A DNA stretch of 64,000 nt from Byssothecium circinans. Taxonomy: Eukaryota > Ascomycota > Dothideomycetes > Pleosporales > Massarinaceae. The translations under genes were made by a program, and so were the position numbers. Where the stretch lies: positions 293,502 to 357,501 of the forward strand of contig ML977010.1 of assembly GCA_010015675.1 (NCBI GenBank), read 5' to 3'. Shown here one piece after another: positions 51,753-64,000 of the stretch; the first letter of the stretch is position 1, and each line of letters opens with the position of its first letter. The notes under the pieces were generated by a model. It searched no databases. It saw nothing but the letters and a program-made list of their open reading frames with translations, and was not told the DNA's origin.

Positions 51753-52439
51753 AATGTGTTATTAAGAATCACCCACGAGTACCTTTTCGGTATATCTGGT
51801 GGAACGGGGAAGGATTCGGTTGCCGGGGGCCCATACGGTGCGCAAAACGAGTGGAGATGAGCGTTCGGTGCTAAAAGAGCCGCAGTGCAAGAATTCTATG
51901 ACTGTTCCAAAATTGCAACACGTATTTGGATATATAGGATAAATATGGTTACCTATGGCATCCGGATGTTTGTATTGAAGAAGTCAGAACGAGATCTTCT
52001 TTCGGCGTCGGAGAAACTAGTCGCCTAGCGGACTTGGCACTTTCTCACAACCTCATCCTCATTCATGTACGCCGTACGCTTCATCAAGCCATCTCCGCCT
52101 CGAGATCTACCTGGCCCCATTATTCTGCCGTCTTTGAATCCCGCAGCGGCTACCATGTGTCCACGACGATGTGCTATTGTAGTTGTAACCGCTGTCATGC
52201 ATATGGGCTGTGCCGCGTCGGCGCTAAGACGCGAGTTCTTCGATATGGGATCAGCAACCCGACTACCGAGCGCATATAACGCTGGATAGTGCTAAACGAT
52301 AGCTGCGCTTACATATCGATAGGATGAATCAAAGAATCGTCCCCCTCTACAAGACTTCTACCATTTCTCCATATCTGAAGGCTCTCTGACACGACTCTTT
52401 TGCCAGCAAACCACAGCTACTTCCGTAAAATTGACGACC
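51753..52439. other. Intergenic
   Basis: No gene is supported; upstream region of the first DUF3176 gene. Confidence 0.45.
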
Positions 52440-54428
52440 ATGCCAGGCCGCGCAGCCTCTCCTTCCCAAGATACACTACCAGCATACTCGACGTTTGAGA
52501 CGAAAAACGACACGACAAACCGCGGTCTGGATATTCCCCAACGAATCGAGAAGCGACTCGCACGGCTCAATGCATCCGATAACACCGCGAAAAGATGGGC
52601 CGTTGAATTGATCAGTTGGATGATGAGTGCGATATGCATGGGAATTATCATCGGCATCCTCATTTGCATCAAGGATCAACCTTTGTCGAAATGGCCAAAG
52701 GGGCAAACGGTCATCACGGTGCTGGCCAAGGTCTCGGCAGCCACCCTGATTATTCCTACATCGGAAGCCATTGGGCAGCTTAAATGGAACTGGTTTGGCG
52801 GCGACGTTTCCAAAGAGATGGTCGACTTCGAAATCTTCGACAAAGCATCACGCGGCCCTTGGGGATCGTTGATGTTAATAGTCCGTACGAAGGGAAGGTC
52901 TTTGGCTGCTTTAGGGGCGATACTTACTCTGTTGATGTTAGCTATCGATACCTTCTTTCAGCAGGTGGTGGAGCTACCCGAGAGATGGCGAGAAGCGGGT
53001 CAAGGGCAGATCTCTCAAGTGCATCGCTTCGAGCCACGATATAACACCATCACACAAAATGGTGCCAAGATGTCTCTCTTCGACACTACTTTGGCCTCTG
53101 TAACGACGAGATTTTTATGGGATAACGGCACACGACCACTATCTTCGGGCAACGGATCAAGGCAAGACTTCCCCATGTCATGCCCTACGAGCAACTGCAC
53201 CTGGCCTTCTTACAATACACTCGGCTTTTGTAGTGCTTGCAGAGACGCTCCGCAGCTACTCGAATACGCCTGCCTCTCTGCTAGGATCGACTGGATATCC
53301 AACTTGACCGGTTTCGGCACGGAATCGACATATCCGAATGGATCCATGTGCGGTTACTTCATCAATGCGACGAGCGAATTTCCAATTATGATGACAGGCT
53401 ACAACACCGACTCAAATGTGCCATACGCGGGCGAGGCTCTTATTATGCGCGTGTTACCGTTGTTAACCAACCCTACGAGGAAGCCTCTTTTTGGTGGCTC
53501 TATCAACTTCAAGCACATCCGCAGCCCTTTATTGAACGTCGTCATCTCTAGAGCCTCCGGCGGCTTAGAGACGGTGTATCAAAATATAGCCCCTGATACA
53601 TTTGAATGCGTTCTATACTGGTGTGTTAAGAATCTAAAGTCGACAAATGTGTTAGGCACATACACCGAAGAAACCATAAGCACATTCACCAACACCACAC
53701 CTGGCGAATTTCCCTGGAGAAGTTATCCCTATACCAGTAAGGAACTCAATGGAACGGACGTCTACTATCTAGAGAATGTGACAATCACTCCACCCGGGCT
53801 CGAGCAAGAGGACTTTGGATTGCTGAACAAGACCCACTTCTCCGTCCACAGAGCTTTCGACGAATTTGCTCCATCATTCACAACAATTCGTAATGGTTCA
53901 ACACAGTCTACCATTCGATTCAGTTTCAACCTCAATGCGGTGTTGCTTCGAACACCCCGCGTCAATCCGTGGCTATCGCCGAACAATATTACAAGCCACA
54001 TGGATCGTTTGGCCGTTGCGATGACAAACACAATTCGATCATCCTACAGCAGCGATCTAGCTTTCGGTCAAGCCTCTGAAATCGTCGTCTTTGTGTCTGT
54101 CAACTGGGCTTGGTTATCTCTCCCGTTGGCGCTGCTCGTGCTCAGCTTACTCTTCTTAATTGCTACAATTGTCAAAACGTCGAAAGAGAAACACGAAATT
54201 GGTGTGTGGAAAACATCCGCAATGCCGACCCTGATTTACAGCCTTCCTCAGGATGTTCAGAAGAATTTTACCTCCAACGGGCCGGTCTGGAGCAAGGCTG
54301 GTCGTTCAGATGCGAAGGGGATAAGGATCAAATTGATGCCCACAAAAGGATGGAGGGTGTCTGGGCATGTGTCTGCGCCAACCACTCCGGTCATGAGACA
54401 GCGTGAAGTTCCGTCTGGATGGATATAA
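52440..54428 (+). CDS. DUF3176 membrane protein, copy 1 (662 aa)
   Basis: Uncharacterised fungal plasma-membrane-type family. Single exon, 663 codons. A short cytosolic N-terminus precedes TM1 (56-77, ELISWMMSAICMGIIIGILI), TM2 (90-110, VLAKVSAATLIIPTSEAIGQ), the family signature LKWNWF...DFEIFDKASRGPWGSLMLI and TM3 (154-175). A ~400-residue ectodomain then carries the paired Cys block CPTSNCTWPSYNTLGFCSAC and at least ten N-glycosylation sequons (NGT, NCT, NLT, NAT, NVT and others), so it should be lumenal or extracellular. TM4 (LSLPLALLVLSLLFLIATIV) and a short tail ending GWRVSGHVS...PSGWI close the protein. The tail and Cys block are shared with copy 2. First of a three-gene tandem set in the same orientation. 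Confidence 0.92.
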   Translation: MPGRAASPSQDTLPAYSTFETKNDTTNRGLDIPQRIEKRLARLNASDNTAKRWAVELISWMMSAICMGIIIGILICIKDQPLSKWPKGQTVITVLAKVSAATLIIPTSEAIGQLKWNWFGGDVSKEMVDFEIFDKASRGPWGSLMLIVRTKGRSLAALGAILTLLMLAIDTFFQQVVELPERWREAGQGQISQVHRFEPRYNTITQNGAKMSLFDTTLASVTTRFLWDNGTRPLSSGNGSRQDFPMSCPTSNCTWPSYNTLGFCSACRDAPQLLEYACLSARIDWISNLTGFGTESTYPNGSMCGYFINATSEFPIMMTGYNTDSNVPYAGEALIMRVLPLLTNPTRKPLFGGSINFKHIRSPLLNVVISRASGGLETVYQNIAPDTFECVLYWCVKNLKSTNVLGTYTEETISTFTNTTPGEFPWRSYPYTSKELNGTDVYYLENVTITPPGLEQEDFGLLNKTHFSVHRAFDEFAPSFTTIRNGSTQSTIRFSFNLNAVLLRTPRVNPWLSPNNITSHMDRLAVAMTNTIRSSYSSDLAFGQASEIVVFVSVNWAWLSLPLALLVLSLLFLIATIVKTSKEKHEIGVWKTSAMPTLIYSLPQDVQKNFTSNGPVWSKAGRSDAKGIRIKLMPTKGWRVSGHVSAPTTPVMRQREVPSGWI

Positions 54429-56742: not shown

Positions 56743-59166
56743 ATGGCGAGAACACCGAATTCACAACAATGGCCTCCATACCCACACATCCCAATCTACC
56801 TTGAGACGAGCGACAACAGCGGGACCGCAAGGTCGTATCGCTCCATAGCACCCATCGCCCCAAGCCCAGAAATTCGAACCGAGAAGCGATCGATACAATA
56901 TCTCGCAGCTGCATCGACTCAATTCACCAGCATCCCGACTCCAGCCTCTCCAGTCTCTCCAGCGACTCAATTCACGAATCTTTCTCCCATTTGGCCCATT
57001 CCCGAGCCACTACCACAACCCCCACCAGAGATTGCCCAACAGCCACCGAGGCGACCTGCACTACGTTTCTTCCCATCTTCTCGGCCACGCGTTCAACTGG
57101 GAGTGCCTGTTGACGAACAATCGGAAAAGGCCCAGAAAAGCCCACCACACCCCGGCCGGAGAAGTAGACTTGGACTGGGTATTGAGGATGTTCTTTCACC
57201 ACAAACTCCGATCTCTATCCCATCCTCGGACACAGAAATGGATAAACGGTCCTCGAATATCGCTCAGAGAATTGAAGAAGGGCTCTGGCGCTACAGCCTC
57301 TCTGGCAACGTTATCAAGAGATGGTTACTTGAGATCATATGCTGGTTGGTCAGCGCTGTCTCGATGGCCACCATCGTTGGGTTTTTGATCTACTACAAGA
57401 ATAAGAAAATTCCCAACTGGCCTGGCAGTCTCACTTTGAACGCGTTCATTGCTATCCTGTCAAAAATCTCCGGTGCAGCACTCATCCTTCCTGTTTCAGA
57501 AGCCCTTGGTCAGCTCAAGTGGAGTTGGTTCCAAGGCCATTCGAAGACAATGTGGGATTTTGAGATCTTCGACAATGCTTCCAGAGGTCCTTGGGGAGCT
57601 TTTCTTCTACTTATACGAACCAAGGGAAGAGCGTTAGCCGCACTCGGAGCTATTATAACGCTGTTCTCACTCGCACTCGATCCCTTTTTTCAACAAGTAG
57701 TAGACTTTCCAGATCGATGGTCACTACAAGGAACTGGAGCTATTCCAAGAGTTGTATGGTATGCCCCAAATTATCTTGCAGAATTCCGTGGTGGAACTCT
57801 GCAGGCCCAGAGTGATGCAGAGATATTTTCAGTCGCCAAGAAGTTCTTCTACGACAATGGTACTCAGCCTATTCAAGTCGGCAACGGTACTCGAGCAGAA
57901 CTTCCTATCTCTTGTCCTACCGGCAACTGTACGTGGGCTCCATACAAGTCCCTCGGAGTGTGCAGCAAATGCGTCGACGTATCTAACATGCTCACGTTTC
58001 AATGTATGGATACCACCGTGGATTGGATTGCAAATTTGACTGGTTCGGGGACAGAATCAACATACCCGAATGGAACGGTTTGCGGATACTTCTTCAATGC
58101 GAAAAATGAGTCTGGCCCGCCGATCATGATGTCTGGATACCTTACAACAGCTGTTCAGTCTGAGGCCGGCTCAGCCCGGAAGGGCGAAGTGCTTCTAAGT
58201 CGCTTACTCCCTTTGGTAAGCTCACCTTCCAAGCGCCCGATTTTCGGAGGCTCCGTACATTTCAAGAACGTGCGAAATCCGCTTCTTGACGTTATGATAG
58301 TCTCGGCCGCGAATGGGCTGGAAAGTGTTCTTCGAAACCAGACTCCGATCGCGCAAGAATGTCTGCTCTCCTGGTGTGTCAAAACCATCAAATCTACATA
58401 CTTCCAGGCCATGTACGAGGAAGAAATCCTGGAAACGGTCGAGAACGGTACTGCAGGCCCTTATCCATGGGTTGCCACCCCACTCAAAAATGGGTTCGAT
58501 ACATACTATCGCGAAAATGTGACGATCCAGACACCTGCCGTCGTAAACGGTTCCGATGCGGTTGGATTTGGGATGCAAAATAGTACTTTCTACAAGATCG
58601 ACACCGTATTTAACGAAGCTTTCCCTTCTTTCTACACGACCACGGGCGCACCTAGTGCTAAACCGATTTTGCGATACAGGTTCTACATCACAGGCCTGCC
58701 TTATACACGCAACCTTGATTTCAATCCATGGATTTCTAATAACGTCACTTTGCATATGGAGAAGCTAGCGACAGCTATAACAAATGTTATGCGTTCTAAC
58801 CCAACGGTTGACCGCGTCATCGGGGACGCCTTCAGCATGGAGGCTTACGTTTTAGTTAGGTGGGAGTGGCTAATACTCCCTTTGAGTCTCTTGCTCCTCA
58901 GTTTACTCTTCCTTGTGGCCACAATGAAGAAGACTTCCAAGGAAGGCGTTTGGAAGACCTCCGCAATTGCAACCCTGCTTTACGGGCTGCCCGACGATAT
59001 GCAAAAGAAAATCACCGCTACAGCAAATGAAGGCACACCAAGGGCAAAAGCAAAGGAATTAAAAGTCAAATTACATGCCACCCAGGGCTGGAGGGTATCC
59101 GGAAATCTTTTCTCTCCCGTCACACCGAAACCAAAACAATACCAACCTCCACTAGGATGGATATGA
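56743..59166 (+). CDS. DUF3176 membrane protein, copy 2 (807 aa)
   Basis: Paralogue of copy 1. Single exon, 808 codons. The core matches block for block: ELICWLVSAVSMATIVGFLI-like TM1, LPVSEALGQLKWSWFQG, DFEIFDNASRGPWGAFLLLI, a Cys block CPTGNCTWAPYKSLGVCSKC, many N-glycosylation sequons, TM4 LPLSLLLLSLLFLVATM and a tail ending GWRVSGNLF...PLGWI. It differs by an N-terminal extension of about 160 residues before the core (Ser/Pro-rich, e.g. PIPEPLPQPPPEIAQQPPRR), which copies 1 and 3 lack. Function unknown. Its 3' end faces the secreted repeat gene 247 bases away. Confidence 0.92.
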   Translation: MARTPNSQQWPPYPHIPIYLETSDNSGTARSYRSIAPIAPSPEIRTEKRSIQYLAAASTQFTSIPTPASPVSPATQFTNLSPIWPIPEPLPQPPPEIAQQPPRRPALRFFPSSRPRVQLGVPVDEQSEKAQKSPPHPGRRSRLGLGIEDVLSPQTPISIPSSDTEMDKRSSNIAQRIEEGLWRYSLSGNVIKRWLLEIICWLVSAVSMATIVGFLIYYKNKKIPNWPGSLTLNAFIAILSKISGAALILPVSEALGQLKWSWFQGHSKTMWDFEIFDNASRGPWGAFLLLIRTKGRALAALGAIITLFSLALDPFFQQVVDFPDRWSLQGTGAIPRVVWYAPNYLAEFRGGTLQAQSDAEIFSVAKKFFYDNGTQPIQVGNGTRAELPISCPTGNCTWAPYKSLGVCSKCVDVSNMLTFQCMDTTVDWIANLTGSGTESTYPNGTVCGYFFNAKNESGPPIMMSGYLTTAVQSEAGSARKGEVLLSRLLPLVSSPSKRPIFGGSVHFKNVRNPLLDVMIVSAANGLESVLRNQTPIAQECLLSWCVKTIKSTYFQAMYEEEILETVENGTAGPYPWVATPLKNGFDTYYRENVTIQTPAVVNGSDAVGFGMQNSTFYKIDTVFNEAFPSFYTTTGAPSAKPILRYRFYITGLPYTRNLDFNPWISNNVTLHMEKLATAITNVMRSNPTVDRVIGDAFSMEAYVLVRWEWLILPLSLLLLSLLFLVATMKKTSKEGVWKTSAIATLLYGLPDDMQKKITATANEGTPRAKAKELKVKLHATQGWRVSGNLFSPVTPKPKQYQPPLGWI

Positions 59167-59305: not shown

Positions 59306-59805
59306 TTACGGACTGCCCGCTGCGAAATCACCCACAATATCTCGTTTGCGCCGCCGACCGGGAGTTCCCCCACGATATCTGTGCCGCCGAATGGGATATC
59401 CCCCACGATATCTCACTTTGTGCTGCCGGCTGGGGAATCNNNNNNNNNNNNNNNNNNNNNNNNNNNNNNNNNNNNNNNNNNNNNNNNNNNNNNNNNNNNN
59501 NNNNNNNNNNNNNNNNNNNNNNNNNNNNNNNNNNNNNNNNNNNNNNNNNNNNNNNNNNNNNNNNNNNNNNNNNNNNNNNNNNNNNNNNNNNNNNNNNNNN
59601 NNNNNNNNNNNNNNNNNNNNNNNNNNNNNNNNNNNNNNNNNNNNNNNNNNNNNNNNNNNNNNNNNNNNNNNNNNNNNNNNNNNNNNNNNNNNNNNNNNNN
59701 NNNNNNNNNNNNNNNNNNNTCTCGCTTTGTGCTGCCGGCTGGGGAATCCCCCCCTAGGAAGTCTCGCTTTGCGCCGTCGACTAGGAAACCTCCTAGGGTG
59801 TCTCG
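59306..59805 (-). repeat. In-frame 39-42 bp minisatellite interrupted by an assembly gap
   Basis: On the minus strand the unit is CGAGACTTCCTAGGGGGGGA plus 22 bases ending in CAAAG (42 bp). One 39-bp variant lies to its right and diverged 33-39 bp variants lie left of the gap. All well-preserved units are multiples of three, so the repeat is translated. The array runs directly into the N block on both sides, showing that the gap itself is unresolved array. Confidence 0.85.
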
Positions 59806-60005
59806 CCGGTTATTGTGATCCACGAGGGCGTATCGAGGCGGGAGAATCGAAGTGCCCACGGCTCTAGCAATGTTCTATATATTCGTTAGCGATTTGCTGG
59901 TAACATCTGGTTCGGACAGGATGAGCTTACTTTGATCGAAGGGACCGGTATGGCAATCGTGGCGATCGCAAGCGATGCGACGAGGAAGATGGACCGACTG
60001 TGCAT
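59413..60005 (-). CDS. Secreted Kex2-processed repeat peptide precursor (KEP-like), gap inside
   Basis: Two exons: 60005-59931 (25 codons, MHSRSIFLVASLAIATIAIP...) and 59874 onward, joined by a 56-nt intron with GTAAGC donor, GCTAAC branch and TATAG acceptor, phase 0. Residues 1 to about 19 are a signal peptide. A ~24-residue pro-region ends at NN, then RR, a unit DTLGGFLVDGA, KR, a unit DFLGGDSPAGST, KR and the next unit, which enters the 280-N gap. Frame is kept across the gap as assembled; the far side ends GDSPAGST-K and a TGA (59413-59415). Dibasic KR/RR sites precede each repeat, as in precursors cut by the Golgi protease Kex2 (alpha-pheromone, repellent, dikaritin RiPP precursors). The cores lack the Tyr of dikaritin cores and the Cys/Trp of typical alpha-pheromones, so the class is unknown. 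No tailoring enzyme is seen nearby. The 178-codon total depends on the gap estimate. Confidence 0.75.
59440..59719. other. Assembly gap (280 N)
   Basis: Run of 280 unknown bases within the minisatellite. Its true length is uncertain and is not a whole number of the units seen at its edges. Confidence 0.99.
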
Positions 60006-62787: not shown

Positions 62788-63421
62788 ATTCAGATCGCAT
62801 CCGACTGTGACATGCGCATAATGTCTTTTCGCTTCTTCTCTTTTTGCAGGTTTTTTTTTTTTTCGCATCCACTGTGCTACCATTCCGTGATTGACAGAGC
62901 ACGACGCAGTTCTTGTCGCTTGGGAAAAGACATCGAACATGCCAGTGGTGAGTTCAAAACTCGGATTATCGAACGTAAGGAGGCGGCGCAGCCCTTCAAT
63001 CCCATTTCGAAAAAGTCTGGCCTTCTACAGATTCGCATTTCTACGGTTCCCATCAAGTCTGCAGGTACAGCTTCGTTAGCAGCAAATGATGCCGCAGCGC
63101 CTACAGAAAGGCAGTGCGATGCCCGCAGATCTGGTCATCGCAGGGCATACGTACATGCAGCGGGGAGACATTCGGCGCGTAGGTGCCGCGATCGGCCTCT
63201 CTTCCTGTCTATCTCCGGTTAGCAGTCGCCAGCAAACGCACCGCTATCTTCATCTGTCTGCGCATTGACCGCAAAAGTGTCGTTAGCCGACCAACAGATC
63301 TCCAAACCCCAATGTATCCGAGTCATCCAGATAATAATATGCTTCTTAGAGGGCTGAAGTTTTCTTTCATGTAGCTGTGCTTCATTTTGACCACGCAATT
63401 GCGACATTTGTTCCTGGAGAT
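62788..63421. other. Intergenic upstream of DUF3176 copy 3
   Basis: A T-run of about 14 lies at 62851-62864. No gene is supported. Confidence 0.4.
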
Positions 63422-64000
63422 ATGGCTGCCATACCGCGTCATCTCGCTCGAACCTGGAGTGTACACTCATCCAATCAAACCCACTCCAATCAGTCACCGG
63501 AAACTTCGATGGATAATCCGCCGCCATATACCGAACGGAAATCGTCGCTCGATATCACACAGAAACTAGAAAGAAAGCTTGCCGGGCTCAATGCTTCGGA
63601 AAATGTGTTCAAGAGATGGATCTATGAGATCGTAACCTGGACGATCAGTGCGCTATGCATGGCTGCCATCATAGTCGTGCTAATGAACATCAACAACAGA
63701 AGCTTGGCTGGGCGAACTACTCTGGTCACTACCTATTCAGTCCTTTCTAAGCTGGCTTCAGCGGCCTTACTGCTTCCCACTTCAGAGGCACTAGGACAGT
63801 TGAAGTGGAACTGGTTAGTACTTCTCTCATAGCTATCATTCCCGATCCATCAGCAACTGTTGGTCGTATGCGATGCACATATTGATGCCGAGCGCGTCTT
63901 TCCAGATTTGAAACTGTCTGCTGACTCAGTATGACATAACAGGTTCCGTGGGAAGAGATCTAGGGAGATATGGGACTTCGAAATCTTCGACAAGGCATCC
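63422..64000 (+). CDS. DUF3176 membrane protein, copy 3 (5' part, cut by window end)
   Basis: Exon 1 (63422-63813) and the beginning of exon 2 (63943-64000). An intron of 129 nt (GTTAGT...CTGAC...AACAG, phase 2) splits the Trp codon of LKWNW|FRG. The N-terminus MAAIPRHLARTWSV... precedes a second possible start at MDNPPPYTERKSSLDITQKL. The region after it parallels copy 1 (IPQRIEKRLARLNASDNTAKRW against ITQKLERKLAGLNASENVFK). TM1 and TM2 and the signature DFEIFDKAS are visible. Copies 1 and 2 lack this intron. The rest of the gene is outside the window. Confidence 0.88.

Follow-up and report, generated by a model that had tools for sequence, protein, structure and literature searches.

A probable orphan Kex2-processed repeat protein gene, possibly decaying, in a pleosporalean fungus

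The minus strand of the window, the whole 64,000-nucleotide stretch of Byssothecium circinans DNA analysed here, contains a gene composed of a signal exon, a predicted intron, a pro-region and a tandem array of repeat units interrupted by a gap (Table 1). The start codon is the ATG at 60005. With the predicted intron removed, the frame reads NIARAVGTSILPPRYALVDHNN-RR-DTLGGFLVDGA-KR-DFLGGDSPAGST-KR and then enters the gap. An earlier note on this DNA had described a signal exon, a short pro-region and KR/RR sites, and these are present before the gap, with the signal peptide judged by Kyte-Doolittle hydrophobicity alone. The hydrophobic stretch of exon 1 is rare, as its level is reached by 7 of 1142 ATG-started frames on both strands of the window, the repeat gene itself counted. 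A Pfam search of the pre-gap protein matched no family.

Table 1. Features of the repeat locus and arrays found near UstYa matches. Positions are those of the window unless a scanned locus (L) is given.
Feature	Position	Strand	Basis or remark
Exon 1, ATG start and putative signal peptide MHSRSIFLVASLAIATIAIPVPSIK	60005-59931	minus	sequence reading
Predicted 56-nt intron, GTAAGC...GCTAACG...ATATAG, phase 0	59930-59875	minus	borders and phase
Pro-region NIARAVGTSILPPRYALVDHNN, ends in RR	59803-59874	minus	sequence reading
Unit 1, DTLGGFLVDGA + KR	59764-59802	minus	sequence reading
Unit 2, DFLGGDSPAGST + KR	59722-59763	minus	sequence reading
280-N run within array	59440-59719	minus	perhaps about 6 hidden units, if the stated length is right
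Tail of unit-2-like copy, DSPAGSTK then TGA	59413-59439	minus	24-nt exact match to unit 2
Post-stop unit DIVGDIPFGGT, no KR after	59380-59412	minus	sequence reading
Post-stop unit DIVGELPVGGA (core 59379-59347), next junction 5 not 6 bases	59342-59379	minus	sequence reading
Last unit DIVGDFAAGSP then TAA, other frame	59306-59341	minus	sequence reading
DUF3176 gene (PF11374), convergent with repeat gene, context only	56743-59166	plus	Pfam
Array near UstYa	L023 6358-6720		2 segments
Array near UstYa	L024 6679-7356		5 segments
Array near UstYa, second place	L024 3659-3823		2 segments
Array near UstYa	L032 6012-6689		8 segments
Array near UstYa	L034 2310-2585		3 segments
Array near UstYa	L036 6639-6845		3 segments

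The sequence between the two exons had been referred to as a clean 56-nt intron. Its borders and its phase stand, but the motifs by themselves are weak evidence, because the two strands of the window together hold six intron-like patterns of this loose kind, and 20 shuffles gave an average of 3.25. The intron call therefore rests on its place between the signal exon and the array, and on the phase.

Both complete units 5′ of the gap are closed by AAGCGA (Lys-Arg), and their lengths of 39 and 42 bases are multiples of three. A 24-base word is identical on the two sides of the gap, where 2000 shuffles gave a maximum of 12. Across five units (10 pairs), nearly all DNA shuffles are beaten, the worst pair being reached by 13 of 2000. 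At the DNA level the locus is a tandem array beyond chance. Calling the units near-identical was an overstatement. Identity between the two complete cores is limited to 5 residues, and shuffling the peptides gave as good a score in 86 of 2000 cases. With a pair score of 17 and a self-score of 57, the repeat locus was not flagged by the array scanners at their threshold of 0.40. Visible in frame are two complete cores and a partial one, the remainder being in the gap or past a stop. Tyr, Trp and Cys are absent from the visible cores, those inside the gap being hidden.

The sole N run of the window sits inside the repeat array. A gap within an array is as expected if near-identical copies defeated assembly. 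The reading frame is kept across it (2 + 280 bases = 94 codons) only if the stated gap length is right. The unit-2-like copies on the two sides of the gap agree to 97% across 29 bases, which suggests a homogenised array centre. A uniform centre with diverged edges is likely to account for both the gap and the worn tail of the array.

Several other frames across the array are open too, on both strands, as would suit a GC-rich minisatellite that is open by chance and is not a gene. This openness arises partly because the gap hides stops. The hydrophobicity of the signal exon, the intron in phase, the in-frame KR at the pre-gap boundaries and the divisibility of both complete unit lengths by three all argue against a chance frame, which is the least probable of the explanations considered.

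The signal exon, the dibasic sites and the array beyond chance support the architecture proposed in the earlier note, that of a Kex2-processed repeat protein (KEP). The class is a recognised one, and its definition comes from Le Marquer et al. 2019 (PMC6339444) and Umemura 2020 (PMC7329392). The accounts of these surveys give 1193 KEPs in 226 species (PMC6339444), and 7878 in 1345 strains, with 22% near DUF3328 genes (PMC7329392). Similar to the members of this class, the gene combines a putative signal peptide with 11-12 residue repeats set off by KR/RR, a size inside the 9-24 residue class reported as the most abundant in most Dikarya (PMC6339444). It differs in that two complete in-frame cores are readable, the core was not found elsewhere in the searches made and the 3′ end is worn. 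Both surveys, as their texts describe them, demand three repeats (PMC6339444, PMC7329392), and the visible sequence falls short of this because of the gap.

The array had been taken to end at 59413. The part read from the 60005 side is real, but the worn units that extend to 59306 had been overlooked; these are three more diverged units after the stop (59412-59306). Within about 110 bases lie an in-frame TGA (59415-59413), a junction that lacks KR and a break in the frame, and the stop severs all three 3′ units from the frame. Owing to this wear, the gene may be decaying. A second intron starting from the GTGAG at 59416 was rejected by eye, as the acceptors appeared too close or a branch site was not seen.

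Under decay, the KEP array would once have made peptides, selection would have been relaxed, and little or no functional product would be made now. The stop, the loss of KR and the frame break are in keeping with this, as are the large divergence between units, the failure of the protein searches to find a homologue and the codon positions of the differences. When the first nine codons of the five units are compared, the columns that vary number 5, 6 and 8 at codon positions 1, 2 and 3, with no clear bias, and pairwise differences over the 10 unit pairs number 45, 31 and 55, a weak bias. The signal exon, with its intron borders, is nevertheless open, as are units 1 and 2, and the likeness of the gap-flanking copies points to a homogenised centre. 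The three 3′ units vary in 13 columns, one of which is a second codon position (hypergeometric 0.013 in a small sample), a pattern suggesting that these units were coding as they diverged. Contig ends next to gaps are prone to error, and this is counted against decay. Loss of function on this scale is considered unlikely, if far from negligible.

A protein collection (about 98-312 aa) was searched with the spliced product, its gap filled by X, and 27 candidates came up, 0 at E <= 10. An alignment including the 3′ words (about 42-133 aa, assuming that the range follows from the first row) gave 9 candidates and no homologue; the short rows were aligned poorly by MAFFT, so this search was less sensitive. 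A diverged orthologue could escape both, because each search depends on 5-residue words in common and on a score high enough for a very large database. The suggestion that gene callers had probably missed the gene fits with the lack of a self-match for the repeat protein in a collection that holds fungal proteins, while the protein of the DUF3176 neighbour finds itself at 100%.

The genome searched consists of 48.4 Mb in 109 contigs. Within it, the pre-gap protein matched its own two exons and one weak place only (E 2.3, contig C41). This place was rejected as a paralogue, since the translated match holds a stop and no KR. The 3′ units gave self-matches only, and a degenerate 30-base DNA pattern was present at one place, the repeat locus itself. 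A loose Lys-Arg-Asp-x-x-Gly-x pattern occurred at 23 places versus 16 for a reversed control, two of the 23 being at the repeat locus. Excluding these two, 12 of the 23 were scanned as loci and no array was present. At L013, an array seen with short segments in a looser scan was gone once the minimum segment length was raised.

A new secreted peptide family, as had been proposed, is not established, since the searches turned up no second member and orphans are common in the class, with 2560 of 7878 KEPs reported to be without a homologue (PMC7329392). No title or abstract among those listed in a literature search pointed to the repeat cores; a relative may be listed in the supplementary tables of the surveys.

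A signal peptide and a Kex2-delimited core array are also features of the dikaritin precursors (ustiloxin, phomopsin and asperipin type), which are associated with UstYa oxidases. The genome contains 56 matches to UstYa (DUF3328, PF11807), counted at the level of exons and not of genes. None lies inside the window. The nearest on the contig begins 72,064 bases from the repeat gene. Two further matches, probably to a single gene, come next and end at a distance of 223,960 bases from the repeat gene. A total of 56 seems many for one fungus, the count being from this genome alone.

Twenty 10-kb regions, 17 other loci and the window were scanned for at least two similar segments between dibasic sites. 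Nineteen of the 20 regions surround UstYa matches (33 of the 56 by our own count) and one lies downstream of the window. Of the 19 UstYa regions, 5 contain dibasic-delimited arrays, whose cores mostly include Tyr or Trp (among them DQDDGWKIS, ALEKYYAYDF and DAEVAYPESY). A further core is VPDADTSYERFQDDVN. These arrays are candidate dikaritin precursors. Scan matches in L026 and L029 (two) were dropped by eye as not KEP-like, and one in L034 was dropped as another frame of the array already counted.

The number of UstYa matches and the KEP-like arrays near some of them allow that the repeat gene is itself a dikaritin-type RiPP precursor, with its oxidase encoded elsewhere in the genome. The visible cores are, however, without Tyr, and the arrays beside UstYa look unlike them. 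Tyr occurs in 65.6% of the repeats of DUF3328-linked KEPs, which makes it usual and not strict (PMC7329392). It has also been reported that a DUF3328 gene, where present, averages 3.09 genes from the KEP gene (PMC7329392), as against the 72 kb to the nearest UstYa match detected here. This distance alone merely removes positive evidence, because 6120 of the 7878 KEPs are given as having no DUF3328 gene within 15 genes (PMC7329392). A dikaritin-type product is considered very improbable.

The precursors of ascomycete alpha-type mating pheromones share the same general architecture (PMC6339444), being secreted precursors with Kex2-delimited copies. In the Dothideomycetes, the alpha-pheromone cores described contain two Cys in one group and PYG[L/M]P[I/V]G in a Pleosporales group (PMC6339444). 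The visible repeat cores have neither the Cys pair nor this motif. The Ste13 X-A/X-P signature, as defined in that survey, is absent too, because DT and DF follow RR/KR (PMC6339444). Elsewhere in the genome, a search limited to the PYGxPxG pheromone patterns gave 0 matches, a result that points neither way. A pheromone precursor is given slightly less credence than a dikaritin. The earlier statement that the cores match none of the classes considered was borne out for the pheromone and dikaritin patterns tested, as the visible cores fit none of them and contain no Tyr, Cys or Trp.

The best explanation, held with reasonable confidence, is that the locus encodes an orphan KEP of a pleosporalean fungus that yields linear secreted peptides and is not a dikaritin precursor. 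It is probably an orphan within a known class, possibly decaying, with a putative function. Counting against this reading are the low number of complete in-frame cores and their merely moderate likeness, the failure of the scanners to flag the locus, the worn 3′ part, the lack of a homologue in which the frame could be seen to be conserved, and a codon-position bias that is weak at most over the five units. The precursor would enter the secretory pathway by means of its signal peptide, and the Golgi protease Kex2 would then cut after RR and KR. Basic residues left on the peptides would be trimmed by a Kex1-type carboxypeptidase. Several copies of a linear 11-12 residue peptide of the form D-x-[LV]-G-[GDE]-...-G-x, chiefly DFLGGDSPAGST, would be freed outside the cell. 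One P-domain match was detected in the genome, and the protein concerned carries Peptidase_S8 and P_proprotein. On these domains, this single P-domain subtilase is a candidate for the Kex2 of the fungus.

Knocking out six KEP genes in Coprinopsis cinerea reportedly left the fungus with no apparent phenotype in the conditions of the study, and it was proposed that the role of such genes lies towards the biotic environment (PMC9769878). The peptide of the orphan KEP would most likely act towards other organisms or on the surface of the fungus itself. A more ambitious version of this reading, that of an intact and expressed KEP, is entertained only tentatively. Several copies of a linear Asp/Gly-rich peptide of an undescribed family would be made, with a signalling or antagonistic role, and the worn edge units would frame an array centre kept uniform by gene conversion.

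Most likely, the repeat gene is real but ordinary in kind, with a fair chance of decay. If expressed, it would add one more orphan secreted peptide to a class of mostly unknown functions, and would be a case of assembly gaps in repeat arrays hiding such genes from annotation. The general view is unchanged, as thousands of such precursors, with very varied cores, are already on record in the surveys (PMC6339444, PMC7329392).

The DUF3176 gene that converges with the repeat gene is regarded as context only. The closest named relatives of its protein, in the best 120 of 620 matches, are from Massarina eburnea (70%, full length) and Periconia macrospinosa (70%, covering 80% of the query), both of the Pleosporales, Massarineae. 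The fungus is accordingly placed in the Pleosporales, near the Massarineae. Among the same best 120 of 620, some matches without a species name reach as much as 79% across a portion of the protein. On the plus strand, a 12-kb part of the window holds three DUF3176 genes or parts of genes, the other two being at 52323-54428 and 63350-63832. The repeat gene sits between the second and the third.
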